The notes under the pieces are model-generated. The model was given only the letters and a program-made list of their open reading frames with translations, had not been told where the DNA came from and made no database searches. 57,946 bases of DNA. It comes from Candidatus Polarisedimenticolia bacterium (GTDB lineage: Bacteria; Acidobacteriota; Polarisedimenticolia; Gp22-AA2; AA152). The stretch spans positions 1-57,946 of the forward strand of contig DASTZC010000130.1 in the NCBI GenBank assembly GCA_035764505.1. Reading direction: 5' to 3'. Each line of letters starts with the position of its first letter. Positions within the stretch are counted from its first letter, which is position 1. The position numbers were made by a program, and so were the translations under genes. Positions 18,646 to 51,104 of the stretch are shown in pieces.

Positions 18646-18734
18646 CGTCTCTCCGTTCTTCGGGGGATCGCCGCGCCCGGACGGGCGGGCGTTCCTGTCA
18701 TGCCGTTCGCTGGGAAGAATGATTCCGAAGGGGG

Positions 18735-18769
18735 AAACCCGGCGGACAGGACGGAGCCTGTCCGCCGGG
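18735..18769 (-). terminator. Strong hairpin, probable terminator of the 18777-19349 gene
   Basis: cccggcggacagg (18738-18750) and cctgtccgccggg (18757-18769) pair perfectly over 13 bases with a 6-base loop. On the minus strand it follows the stop at 18777 and is trailed by tttccccctt, a weak U-rich tail. Confidence 0.7.
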
Positions 18770-18776
18770 ATGGAAC

Positions 18777-19349
18777 CTATCGGGCGCTCACTCTGCGGAC
18801 GGTGGAGGGAGTCTCCAGGAGCAGCTCGTCGAAAAGGGAGCGGTAGTGAACCAGCGCCTGGCGCAGCTCCTCGGTCCCGGCCCGTCCCTGGTGGTTCGAC
18901 AGCGCGATATCACGCGCGGCGCGGTAGTGGGCCACCACGTTCGGATGGTCCACCGAGATGTCCGCCGCTCGCTGCTCGAAATCGCCGATCGGGTAGCCGC
19001 GGGCCTGCATGACTTCCTTGACCAGCCCGTTCGCTTCGCTGACGGCCATGGAAGGGTCGTCCACGAAGCGCGCCTGCACCCGCTTCCAGGCTTCGGTGAA
19101 GCGCTGGTGCAGCTCCGGCGACAGGGGCCGAATATGGAGTCTCTCCACCCGCTTCTGCCGGGCCGCGAGCTCCCGCTCGGCCGGACGGGGTCCGCCGAAG
19201 GTATCAACAGCCCGATCGTACTCGGGGCCGAACTGGTCCCTGAGATCCTGGCTGCGACGCTTCCGGGTCGTGTTCCAAATCAAGGCGGCCGCCACGAGAG
19301 CTCCGACGACCACTACAATCGCCATGATCAACATCGTCGTATTGTCCAT
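18777..19349 (-). CDS. Membrane-anchored protein of unknown function
   Basis: 190 residues. One N-terminal membrane helix (about 6-26) then RKRRSQDLRDQFGPEYDRAV and a soluble domain with conserved-looking pieces LHIRPLSPELHQRFTEAW, FEQRAADISVDHPNVV and VHYRSLFDELL. Proteins like this recur in soil bacteria beside CsbD and other small stress genes, but I know no function. ATG 19349 is set by GGAGG five bases ahead; the longer open frame reaching 19664 is rejected because its extra part has no coding character. Confidence 0.8.
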   Translation of the reverse strand: MDNTTMLIMAIVVVVGALVAAALIWNTTRKRRSQDLRDQFGPEYDRAVDTFGGPRPAERELAARQKRVERLHIRPLSPELHQRFTEAWKRVQARFVDDPSMAVSEANGLVKEVMQARGYPIGDFEQRAADISVDHPNVVAHYRAARDIALSNHQGRAGTEELRQALVHYRSLFDELLLETPSTVRRVSAR

Positions 19350-37870: not shown

Positions 37871-38233
37871 ATGGCTCGATACGTCGATGGGTATGTGGTC
37901 CCGGTTCCGAAGAAGAAGCTGGCGGCTTACCGCCGCATGGCGCAGAAGGCTGGCAAGGTGTGGCGCGACCACGGCGCGCTGGAATACCTCGAAGGAGTCG
38001 CGGACGACGTGAAGCGTGGCAAGTGGACCTCCTTCCCGCGCAGCGTGAAGCTCAAGCCCAGCGAGACGGTGGTGTTCGCCTACATCGTCTACAAGTCGCG
38101 CGCCGCCCGCGACCGCATCAATGCGAAAGTCATGAAGGACCCCCGCCTGAACGACATGATGGACCCCAAGGCGATGCCCTTCGACTCCAAGCGGATGTTC
38201 TGGGGCGGGTTCAAATCGATCGTCTCGATGTGA
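37871..38233 (+). CDS. DUF1428 family protein
   Basis: 120 residues. The start MARYVDGYVVPVPKKKLAAYRRMAQ and the end RMFWGGFKSIV are the DUF1428 pattern, a ferredoxin-like dimeric alpha+beta barrel family; catalytic role unknown. GGAGG lies seven bases before ATG 37871. It is transcribed alone and stopped by a strong hairpin before the convergent phosphoesterase gene. Confidence 0.92.
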   Translation: MARYVDGYVVPVPKKKLAAYRRMAQKAGKVWRDHGALEYLEGVADDVKRGKWTSFPRSVKLKPSETVVFAYIVYKSRAARDRINAKVMKDPRLNDMMDPKAMPFDSKRMFWGGFKSIVSM

Positions 38234-38251
38234 GCCGCTGACGCCGGGACG

Positions 38252-38276
38252 GCCCGGCGGCGCCGCGCCGCCGGGC
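38252..38276. terminator. GC hairpin between convergent genes
   Basis: cccggcggcg (38253-38262) pairs with cgccgccggg (38266-38275) with a 3-base loop, extended by one pair. There is no T run on either side. It probably stops transcription from DUF1428 and the phosphoesterase in both directions. Confidence 0.55.
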
Positions 38277-38291
38277 GGTCGGCTCAAGACA

Positions 38292-39527
38292 TCAGTTGCA
38301 CAGGTGCAGCGGCGGGGAATCGGGTTTCGGAAGCTCCGGCACCGTCGTATCGTAGTGCTCGCCATCCAGCGCGTCGAGCAGGTTGCCCACGTCGCTCGAG
38401 GCGTCCCGCGCCGTCAAAGGGGTGAGTCCCCAGCGCCATTCGATCAGCTTCAGAATCGAGGTGTGGTCGAAGACCGCGGAGACCACCCGCGGGTTGCTCG
38501 GATCCCCTTTGGTGAACGGCGAGGCGATGATCGTGGGGACGCGCAGCCCCAGAAGGGCCTTGCCGTTCACCACGTCCTGATCCACGTCGTTGGGCGCCGC
38601 GGCGCGCGGCGGCTTCACGTGGTCGAAGAAGCCTCCCCACTCGTCATAGGTGACGATGAAGATGGTGTTCGGCCAGTCGGGACCCTCGGCAAGGGCGTGG
38701 AACGTGCGGGACAAAAAGGCGTCCCCCTCCCGGATGTCCCCCTTCGGATGGTCACTCCCGCCAATCCCCAGCTCATAGCCCAGGAACCGCGGGTCCACGA
38801 AAGAGACCTGAGGCAGCTTGCCGGCCGCGGCGTCGGTCAGGAACCGCTCGTAGGGACGGCTGATGGAGGCGTACTTGTCCCCCCAGAAGATCAGGAAGGA
38901 GAAGTCGGTGTAGTAGTAGCCCGCCGACACACCCTTCTCGGCCAGCCGATCCCAGATGGTGGGCAGCGTGCTCCGCTCCGGGGTGTTCTCCAACCGGTCG
39001 GTCTGGGCGGCGTGAAGAAAGATTCGGTTCGGATAGGTCGGGCCCAGGATCGAGGAAAAGAACCGATCGAGCGTGGTGAAGTTGCGCGCCAGGGCCGAGA
39101 GGAAGGGCTTGTCGTTCTCGAGGTAATAGCCGATCGCGTAATCGTCATTCTCATCCGTCTTCAGAAAGCCGTTCATGGCCCCTTCGGCGACGTTCTCCCG
39201 CCCGCCCGCGTAGCTGTGGTCCGGATCGGGGTGCCCGCAACCCTGGAAGTCCTCAAGATGGTGAGTCGGTTGGAGATTGCCGCCATCGTCGGGGTAGGAG
39301 AGCCCCTCCTGCATCCCATCGGCGGTCGGGTGCCATCCCAGCAGGTGGTCAAAGCTGCGGTTCTCCATCATGACCACGACAATCTTCTTGATGCGCGACT
39401 TGGGGGAGCGCTTGGACGCGGCCTGCGCTTCGCCTACCGCCAAGAGCCCGCCGGCAAGGAATAACAATAGAACGGCAACGGTAAGCCGAGCCGCTCTCGC
39501 GACGGTCGGCGAGTCTTTGATTACCAT
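38292..39527 (-). CDS. Phospholipase C / acid phosphatase-type phosphoesterase, secreted
   Basis: 411 residues. Signal peptide to about residue 38 (LLLFLAGGLLAVGEAQA), then the phosphoesterase family motifs ENRSFDHLLG, GPTYPNRIF and TYDEWGGFFDHVKPP that include the metal-binding and nucleophile residues. The family (phospholipase C/acid phosphatase) cleaves phospholipid head groups or phosphate esters outside the membrane. ATG 39527 is chosen because the signal peptide begins there; the frame is open to 39617 but without a start signal. It stands alone, convergent with DUF1428. Confidence 0.9.
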   Translation of the reverse strand: MVIKDSPTVARAARLTVAVLLLFLAGGLLAVGEAQAASKRSPKSRIKKIVVVMMENRSFDHLLGWHPTADGMQEGLSYPDDGGNLQPTHHLEDFQGCGHPDPDHSYAGGRENVAEGAMNGFLKTDENDDYAIGYYLENDKPFLSALARNFTTLDRFFSSILGPTYPNRIFLHAAQTDRLENTPERSTLPTIWDRLAEKGVSAGYYYTDFSFLIFWGDKYASISRPYERFLTDAAAGKLPQVSFVDPRFLGYELGIGGSDHPKGDIREGDAFLSRTFHALAEGPDWPNTIFIVTYDEWGGFFDHVKPPRAAAPNDVDQDVVNGKALLGLRVPTIIASPFTKGDPSNPRVVSAVFDHTSILKLIEWRWGLTPLTARDASSDVGNLLDALDGEHYDTTVPELPKPDSPPLHLCN

Positions 39528-49086: not shown

Positions 49087-50337
49087 ATGACTTGCCGGCT
49101 CGCGGCCCTCATGTGCCTCGTCGCGGCCCTGTTTCTCGGCGGCTGCTCGACACTCCATCCCGAACAGCGCAGCACCTACGCGCTGAGTGCCCCCATGGCA
49201 GTCGAAGACGCGGCGTTCCTGCGATCCCTGGACAACTTCGGCGGCACCATGGTGCAGGGAAACGACGCGCAGCTCCTGGAGAACGGCGACGGCGTCTTCC
49301 CGGCCATGCTGCGGGACATCGCCGAGGCGCGCTCCACCGTCAATCTGGAGACTTACATCTACATGGACGATGAGGCCGGCAGGCTGTTCGCCGATGCGCT
49401 GATGGCGGCGAGCCGGCGCGGGGTGCAGGTCCGGCTGATGCCCGACGCCCAGGGAAGCAAGCTGGGCAAGCTGCGCGACGAGCTGCTCGCGGCAGGTGTC
49501 ATCTGCAAGGACTACCGGCCGGCGCGGAGCCACGCTTATTACGGGCGCCGCACCCACCGCAAGCTGCTGGTGGTCGACGGGAGGATCGGCTATGCGGGCG
49601 GCTTCTGCATCGACCGGCGCTGGATGGGAAAAGCCCGGAACAAGGCGGAATGGCACGACAGCACCGCCCGCATCACCGGCCCGGTAGTTTCCCAGATGCA
49701 GGCGATCTTCGGGGAAGACTGGACCTACACCACCGGTGAGATCCTGGCCGGGGAGCGCTTCTATCCGAAGCTCGAGCCAGCCGGCGCCATGACGGCCCAC
49801 GCCATGAAGGCTTCCAAAGGCGATGCCTCGTCGCTCCCGAAGATGCTCTACTTCATGGCGATCGAGTCCTCCCGCAAGAGCATCCACATCCAGAACTCCT
49901 ATTTCCTTCCCGACGACCAGATCCGCGCTGCGCTCATCGCGGCGGCACGGCGCGGCGTCGAGGTCAAGGTGATGGTCCCCGGGCCCAACACCGACGTTCC
50001 CCCGGTCCGGATGGCCTCGCGGCACGATTACGGCGAGCTGCTGCAGGGGGGAGTTCGCATCTTCGAGTATCAGCCGACGATGATCCATTCCAAGACCCTG
50101 GTCGTGGACAGCCTCTTCTCGACCATCGGATCGATCAACCTGGATGCCCGCTCCATGTCCAAGAACGCAGAAGATGGCGTTTCGCTCTACGACCGCCGCT
50201 TCGCCGCCTCGGTCGAGGCGATGTTCCAGCGCGACCTGAAGGTCTGCCACGAGATCACCTTCGACGCCTGGAAGCATCGCGGCTTCACCGCGCGCTTCTT
50301 CGAGACCTTCTCCAGCTGGTTCGAGCCGCTGTACTGA
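49087..50337 (+). CDS. Phospholipase D-family lipoprotein (cardiolipin synthase-like)
   Basis: 416 residues. Lipoprotein signal with FLGGC (Cys20) and two HKD motifs: HRKLLVVDGRIGYAGG (about 158-173) and HSKTLVVDSLFSTIGS (about 338-353), the duplicated catalytic sites of phospholipase D and cardiolipin synthases. The enzyme would exchange or hydrolyse phospholipid head groups; the lipoprotein anchor suggests a periplasm-facing location. No ribosome site is evident before ATG 49087; a ttagct hexamer 7 bases upstream raises the option of a leaderless transcript. A weak promoter lies downstream for the next gene only. Confidence 0.9.
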   Translation: MTCRLAALMCLVAALFLGGCSTLHPEQRSTYALSAPMAVEDAAFLRSLDNFGGTMVQGNDAQLLENGDGVFPAMLRDIAEARSTVNLETYIYMDDEAGRLFADALMAASRRGVQVRLMPDAQGSKLGKLRDELLAAGVICKDYRPARSHAYYGRRTHRKLLVVDGRIGYAGGFCIDRRWMGKARNKAEWHDSTARITGPVVSQMQAIFGEDWTYTTGEILAGERFYPKLEPAGAMTAHAMKASKGDASSLPKMLYFMAIESSRKSIHIQNSYFLPDDQIRAALIAAARRGVEVKVMVPGPNTDVPPVRMASRHDYGELLQGGVRIFEYQPTMIHSKTLVVDSLFSTIGSINLDARSMSKNAEDGVSLYDRRFAASVEAMFQRDLKVCHEITFDAWKHRGFTARFFETFSSWFEPLY

Positions 50338-50534
50338 GCCGCGCCTGACGTCCGATACGCTTCCCCTACGTAATTCATGGTAAAGGCAGAGACCCAAGAA
50401 GTCGGCCGAATGACCGGGTTCGTGGTTTTCGACTCGTCCGGTCGGTTCCCATTGGCTAGACTTGCTGCAGAGCCTTATGTGCTGCGTGTCATCGTCTCAC
50501 AGCAGGCCGTTGGGACGTATCAAAGGAGAGTGCC

Positions 50535-51104
50535 ATGGCTGAGATTCAATGGCTGAAAGATGTGGAGGAAGGGCTGCAGGAAGCGAAGCGCTCGGGAAAG
50601 CCTGTGCTGCTCGACTTCAGCGCCGCCCCGATGTGAGGAGGGTGCGCTCGGCTGGAAGCCGAGGTCTACCCCGATTCCCGCGTCGTCGATGCAGTTTCCA
50701 CGCAGTTCGTGCCCATCAAAGTGCACATCAAAGAGCAGAAGCCTGTCTTCGACCGCTTCAACGCACACTGGACTCCTACCCAGCTGGTCCTCGATTCCGA
50801 CGGCGTGGAGCGCCACCGGATCGAGGGGTTCCTGCCGGCCGAGGACTTCCTCGCGCAGCTCAACCTGGGTGTGGGAAAGCTGCAGTTCCAGAAGGAGGAG
50901 TACGCCAAGGCGGAAGAGACGCTGCATACCGTGGCGGAGAGCTTCCCCAAAGCGGGAGCCGGGCCGGAGGCCTGCTACTGGGAGGGGGTGGCCGCCTACA
51001 AGAAGAGCAACGACGCCAAGTATCTGGCGATGGCGGCCAAGGCCCTGAAGCGCCGGTATCCCCGCAGCGAGTGGGCACGCAAGGCGACGGTCTGGAGTCA
51101 TTGA
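50535..51104 (+). CDS. Thioredoxin-fold protein with in-frame TGA: probable selenoprotein
   Basis: 189 residues if TGA at 50634-50636 is read as selenocysteine (residue 34). The frame is continuous from ATG 50535 to TGA 51102-51104. The motif reads AAPM-U-G-G-C, a U-x-x-C version of the thioredoxin CxxC, followed by a helix, the cis-proline loop HWTPTQLVLDSDG and a TPR-like C-terminal part. Without recoding the first ORF would be 33 residues and the fold would be broken. A hairpin just after the TGA fits a bacterial SECIS. AAAGGAGA precedes the start. No Sec machinery is in the window. Confidence 0.82.
50637..50672 (+). promoter_or_regulatory. Candidate bacterial SECIS element
   Basis: Directly after the recoded TGA: a lower stem GGGT/ACCC (50640-50643 with 50668-50671), an internal loop, an upper stem CTCGGC/GCCGAG (50647-50652 with 50658-50663) and a 5-base loop TGGAA. 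The apical loop begins 16 bases after the TGA and has G at its second position, as bacterial SECIS elements require. The SelB-recognised element must also encode the protein, which it does. Confidence 0.65.

Follow-up and report, generated by a model that had tools for sequence, protein, structure and literature searches.

Comparison with known thioredoxin-fold selenoproteins

The nearest listed relative of the gene presented here is the 'Thiol:disulfide interchange protein' family of selenoproteins, which carries the PF13098 domain and a UxxC motif (e.g., WP_011366075.1) and is known from Geobacter and Syntrophus (PMC13188914, PMC1794560). The locus lies in a stretch of 57,946 nucleotides from Candidatus Polarisedimenticolia bacterium (the whole stretch is called the window), and its predicted product shares with that family the Thioredoxin_2 domain and a UxxC site with selenocysteine (Sec) at the first position. 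In a comparison made by description only, the present family differs in its TPR-like tail and in its AAPUGGCARLEAE or PGULGC motifs.

The best NCBIfam match was TsoB, a rhodanese/DsbD fusion-like selenoprotein (NF045694). Residues 4-109 of the window protein fit the C-terminal DsbD-like domain of TsoB, but the score is 52.2 bits against a cut-off of 805 and both the rhodanese and the membrane part are absent; TsoB is listed with a UxxxxU motif in the review of 119 families (PMC13188914). The VPGUxxT selenoproteins of types 1 and 2 (NF041382 and NF041383) are alike in their thioredoxin-like fold with Sec in the active-site loop; however, they are larger proteins with UxxT, whereas the window protein has UxxC in the motif APMUGGC. 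Only residues 3-64 match these two models, at 34.1 bits (cut-off 350) and 46.9 bits (cut-off 275), respectively. The Selenocysteine thioredoxin family (PF00085, UxxC) has the thioredoxin fold and the UxxC site in common with the window protein, which carries an extra tail; PF00085 scores only 24.5 bits and the thioredoxin equivalog TIGR01068 23.1 bits, below its cut-off of 96.8. The Trx7/PDZ selenoprotein (NF041199), with CxxU and a PDZ domain, gives 30.1 bits against 300, and the window protein has UxxC and no PDZ match. By profile, the closest PDB relatives of the read-through protein are DsbD C-terminal domains and thioredoxins (4ip1, 2fwe and others), of the same fold and with the CxxC site aligned, although the DsbD domain has Cys, is periplasmic and belongs to a membrane protein, whereas the window protein has Sec and no evident signal peptide.

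The window protein scores below the cut-off of every NCBIfam model, and the best hits of the other members are again these few distant models; no family combining Thioredoxin_2 and TPR is listed in the 119-family table (PMC13188914). These proteins look like a new family of thioredoxin-fold UxxC selenoproteins, although they may be a divergent branch of the WP_011366075.1 family.

The gene and its predicted product

The features of the locus are collected in Table 1. From 50535 to 51101, the frame contains exactly one internal TGA and is otherwise open; its translation is MAEIQWLKDVEEGLQEAKRSGKPVLLDFSAAPM-U-GGCARLEAEVYPD...WTPT...VWSH, and the true stop comes next. The TGA stands in the context SAAPM-TGA-GGCARLEAE, where it takes the place of the first Cys in a CxxC-type site (AAPM-U-GGC). 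The preliminary description had placed a single TGA at codon 34, where the first Cys of a CxxC site belongs, with a 131-residue fragment left by the standard code from 50709, and the coordinates and the size were confirmed, the start at 50709 being GTG.

Table 1. Features of the predicted selenoprotein gene and its surroundings, with positions in the window.
Feature	Position	Strand	Remarks
PLD-domain protein	49087-50337		Upstream of the selenoprotein gene
Shine-Dalgarno-like AAAGGAGAG	50522..50530	+	Upstream of ATG 50535; read from sequence
Predicted selenoprotein gene	50535..51104	+	189 residues, Sec = residue 34; based on the open read-through frame and 24 genomes sharing the TGA codon
Thioredoxin-fold domain (Pfam Thioredoxin_2)	50583..50861	+	Residues 17-109; cis-Pro-type WTPT at residues 79-82
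Predicted Sec codon, TGA	50634..50636	+	Codon 34; U of the UxxC active site (UGGC)
Putative resolving Cys, C37	50643-50645	+	Three residues past TGA codon 34
Putative bSECIS hairpin CTCGGCT-GGA-AGCCGAG	50647..50663	+	7 bp; G-first apical loop GGA 17 nt past the TGA
131-aa standard-code fragment	50709..51104	+	GTG start; artefact of the TGA being taken as a stop
C-terminal helical, TPR-like tail	50877..51080	+	About residues 115-182; weak YbgF/BamD-type repeat matches
Real stop of the selenoprotein gene	51102-51104		TGA
Small basic ORF, 102 aa	51107-51415	-	Without a Pfam match; may be a DNA-binding protein resembling histone H1
MerR/TPR protein		other strand	Downstream of the selenoprotein gene

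The reading that best explains the whole of the data, with a probability of about 95%, is that the UGA at codon 34 encodes Sec and that the product is a predicted thioredoxin-fold reductase. The ribosome would decode the codon with Sec brought by SelB and tRNA-Sec, SelB being recruited by a bSECIS hairpin directly downstream of the UGA in the mRNA. Selenoproteins are systematically mis-annotated since UGA is taken as a stop, and ordinary gene-calling would split this gene in two, leaving the window gene as a headless 131-aa fragment. In relatives, conservation at the protein level extends, in the same frame, to the codons upstream of this fragment, and several homologues have GGAGG or GAGGAG sites ahead of the aligned ATG, similar to AAAGGAGAG.

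The read-through protein matches Thioredoxin_2 (PF13098) with an E-value of 8.4e-14 and 52.2 bits, above the Pfam gathering cut-off of 27. This match spans the TGA codon, as do those of other thioredoxin models. The tail has a PDB profile match to YbgF (2xev). The AlphaFold single-sequence model of the protein was too poor for use (pLDDT 54).

In UxxC proteins, Sec is the attacking nucleophile and Cys the resolving residue. Judging from the fold and this chemistry, the protein is most likely a thiol-disulfide reductase in which Sec34 would attack a disulfide or a comparable oxidised substrate, leaving a mixed intermediate to be resolved by Cys37. There is no evident signal peptide at the N terminus MAEIQWLKDVEEGLQEAK, which suggests the cytosol. 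The product would thus be small and probably cytosolic; its active site would be U-G-G-C, and its short helical tail probably binds a partner or substrate.

Conservation of the TGA codon across the phylum

A search of 149 relatives gave eleven best matches, all of them full-length and with one TGA each. In the alignment of 14 full-length TGA members, the TGA falls exactly at codon 34, and a profile built from these 14 was used to search 396 genomes of the phylum. The full-length protein was found in 25 of them, with TGA at the aligned codon in 24 and TGC in one. The TGA is thus kept at codon 34 in independently assembled relatives, out to other families of the phylum, and it aligns with the first Cys of CxxC both in Thioredoxin_2 relatives and in the Cys member. 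A comparison with Cys homologues at this position had been proposed beforehand, and their Cys does fall on the TGA codon. The recurrence of the TGA in 24 genomes rules out, for practical purposes, a sequencing error at 50634-50636, and another alternative raised at the outset, homologues with a conserved stop and no coding beyond it, did not appear either: conservation of the protein extends to the C terminus, and Cys occupies the site in one lineage. A match on a Burkholderia multivorans plasmid was discarded as a Cys protein of another architecture.

The only Cys version among the 25 (L072, G325:C74:27116-27685) is one continuous ORF. It comes from a genome of 2.4 Mb, 99% complete, which is the sole family-bearing genome without a selA match. 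Apparently, the Sec trait was lost in this lineage and Sec was replaced by Cys. In the thioredoxin-domain tree, the Sec proteins and L072 form one clade (support 98/94) with L072 nested inside, and the Cys relatives outside this clade mostly have N-terminal hydrophobic leaders. This topology suggests that Sec is ancestral and Cys derived within the family, although L072 has a long branch and its exact placement is unsure.

These data also bear on the possibility that the TGA is a genuine stop, either in a pseudogene or at the end of a 33-residue leader peptide followed by a separate protein from GTG 50709. The standard code does yield a 131-aa ORF from that GTG, but the TGA is at one codon in 24 genomes with protein conserved on both sides of it, and the fragment would lack the conserved residues 35-58. 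Moreover, both halves are required for the thioredoxin domain, and the Cys version runs through the site as a single ORF. In every part pN/pS is below 1, with 0.42 before the TGA, 0.67 in codons 44-58 and 0.55 after them, and third positions are the most variable in each of these parts. By this comparison coding continues across the codon, and a genuine stop is considered very improbable.

Selenocysteine machinery

The preliminary description had proposed a search for selA, selB, selC and selD elsewhere in the genome, and all four were found in the source assembly (4.46 Mb, 288 contigs). The tRNA-Sec (selC) scored 73.8 bits and was identified by ARAGORN as tRNA-SeC with anticodon TCA, while SelA, SelB and SelD scored 444, 336 and 366 bits, respectively. 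Other tRNA-Sec matches in this genome (34-45 bits) were below the cut-off, and those checked with ARAGORN were ordinary tRNAs.

Furthermore, selD (L018, G000:C274:16176-17102, minus strand) has a single in-frame TGA of its own at the UxxK motif (SSSGG-U-AAK), the motif listed for Sec-containing SelD (PMC13188914). SelD is likely a selenoprotein itself, and UGA would therefore apparently be already used for Sec elsewhere in the source genome. Under the model used, the simple hairpin downstream of this selD codon is a weak one (-4.1 kcal/mol).

The TGA codon goes together with the machinery when genomes are compared: selA is present in all 24 TGA-bearing genomes, the source genome included, and a tRNA-Sec match of at least 61 bits was obtained in 20 of them, with 55 bits in another (G008). 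In the remaining three (G064, G202 and G256), the best tRNA-Sec match does not exceed the level usual for Ser-tRNA cross-matches; all three have selA and are draft assemblies, and the missing strong match may reflect incomplete assembly.

A constrained hairpin downstream of the TGA

The published bSECIS model asks for a stem of 4-16 bp, a loop of 3-9 nt with G in its first two positions, a distance of 16-37 nt from the UGA and an energy of at most -7.5 kcal/mol (PMC13188914). The window hairpin lies within all of these limits. Under the same rules, a hairpin at least as stable follows 60 of the 1228 TGAs of this GC-rich window, so its presence alone is weak evidence and it is its conservation that speaks for a SECIS. 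Rfam gave nothing in the window at the gathering threshold, which is not informative, since bSECIS elements hardly resemble one another.

The TGA-bearing members were divided into group 1 (16 members, including that of the window) and group 2 (eight members, whose motif is PGULGC or a similar one). In group 1, every member except L067 has CTCGGC-TGGAA-GCCGAG, or a sequence close to it, after the TGA. Synonymous conservation is strongest in codons 37-44, which rank first among the 181 windows of the gene, and R39, E41, A42 and E43 use one codon in every residue-sharing pair, compared with about 0.52 expected or gene-wide. The stem pairs of this group show no covariation, because they hardly vary. 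The exception, L067 (G292:C2:890683-891240), has a re-drawn stem, CGGCTC-GAACAA-GAGTCG, in a similar place.

In group 2 the stem is another one, GGATGC-N6-GTATCC, located 17 nt past the TGA, with 48 of 48 cells paired. Its changes are one two-sided compensatory replacement (A-U to G-C) and two one-sided ones, and pairing falls to 23-63% when the partner is shifted by 1 to 3 columns. The covariation score was reached in 55 of 500 shuffles; with such small numbers, this stem is supportive of a SECIS and not decisive. Downstream of the site, the Cys member lacks a comparable hairpin (-5.9 kcal/mol).

The UGA could be read by another route, that is, programmed read-through, a suppressor tRNA or reassignment to Trp or Gly. 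The inserted residue is not deducible from the sequence alone, which leaves some room for such a reading. Nevertheless, the source genome has the full set of sel genes, Cys occupies the position in relatives as well as in the single lineage that lacks selA, the SECIS-like hairpin is synonymously constrained, and the gene's own terminator is TGA, so UGA has not been reassigned throughout. Very little weight is given to this possibility. Together, the sel genes, the 24 TGA genomes and the constrained hairpin support the original proposal of a Sec protein cut short by standard gene calling.

Least probable of the alternatives is a true gene on the other strand (50520-51101, 193 aa), since this antisense ORF, open in the window and in roughly half of its relatives in group 1, has stops in 8 of the 16 group 1 members, the plus frame matches Thioredoxin_2 at 8e-14, and divergence before the TGA is highest at the third position of that frame (0.51 vs 0.31 and 0.26). 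Mirror ORFs are common in high-GC coding DNA, and an automatic caller might prefer this one to the true gene.

Implications of a nearly constant predicted selenocysteine

Cys-containing homologues have been reported for nearly all selenoprotein families. In contrast to this usual situation, the full-length family described here has Sec in 24 of 25 genomes, which makes it a good place for asking what selenium does beyond sulfur. The chances are about even that this is an uncatalogued, ancestrally Sec-containing family in which Sec is close to obligatory, Cys appears only where the machinery has been lost, and the SECIS has been remodelled into two or more unrelated stems. If so, Cys would be a poor substitute in the reaction, as is suggested by the appearance of Cys forms only upon loss of the Sec machinery. 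The switch to Cys in the lone genome without selA (G325) amounts to a clean experiment of nature, and the recognition of bacterial SECIS elements by SelB finds a test set in the two distinct hairpins.

Genomic neighbourhood

In the surroundings of 20 relatives (7-13 kb), no neighbour recurs beyond close kin and no conserved operon was found. The selenoprotein gene thus seems to stand by itself, and these comparisons do not support the 'stress-rich locus' in which the preliminary description had placed it. Elsewhere in the window, two strong perfect or near-perfect inverted repeats were met during the scan of its TGAs for hairpins, at 38231-38294 (GCCCGGCGGCGC...) and at 18720-18790 (CCCGGCGGACAGG...).
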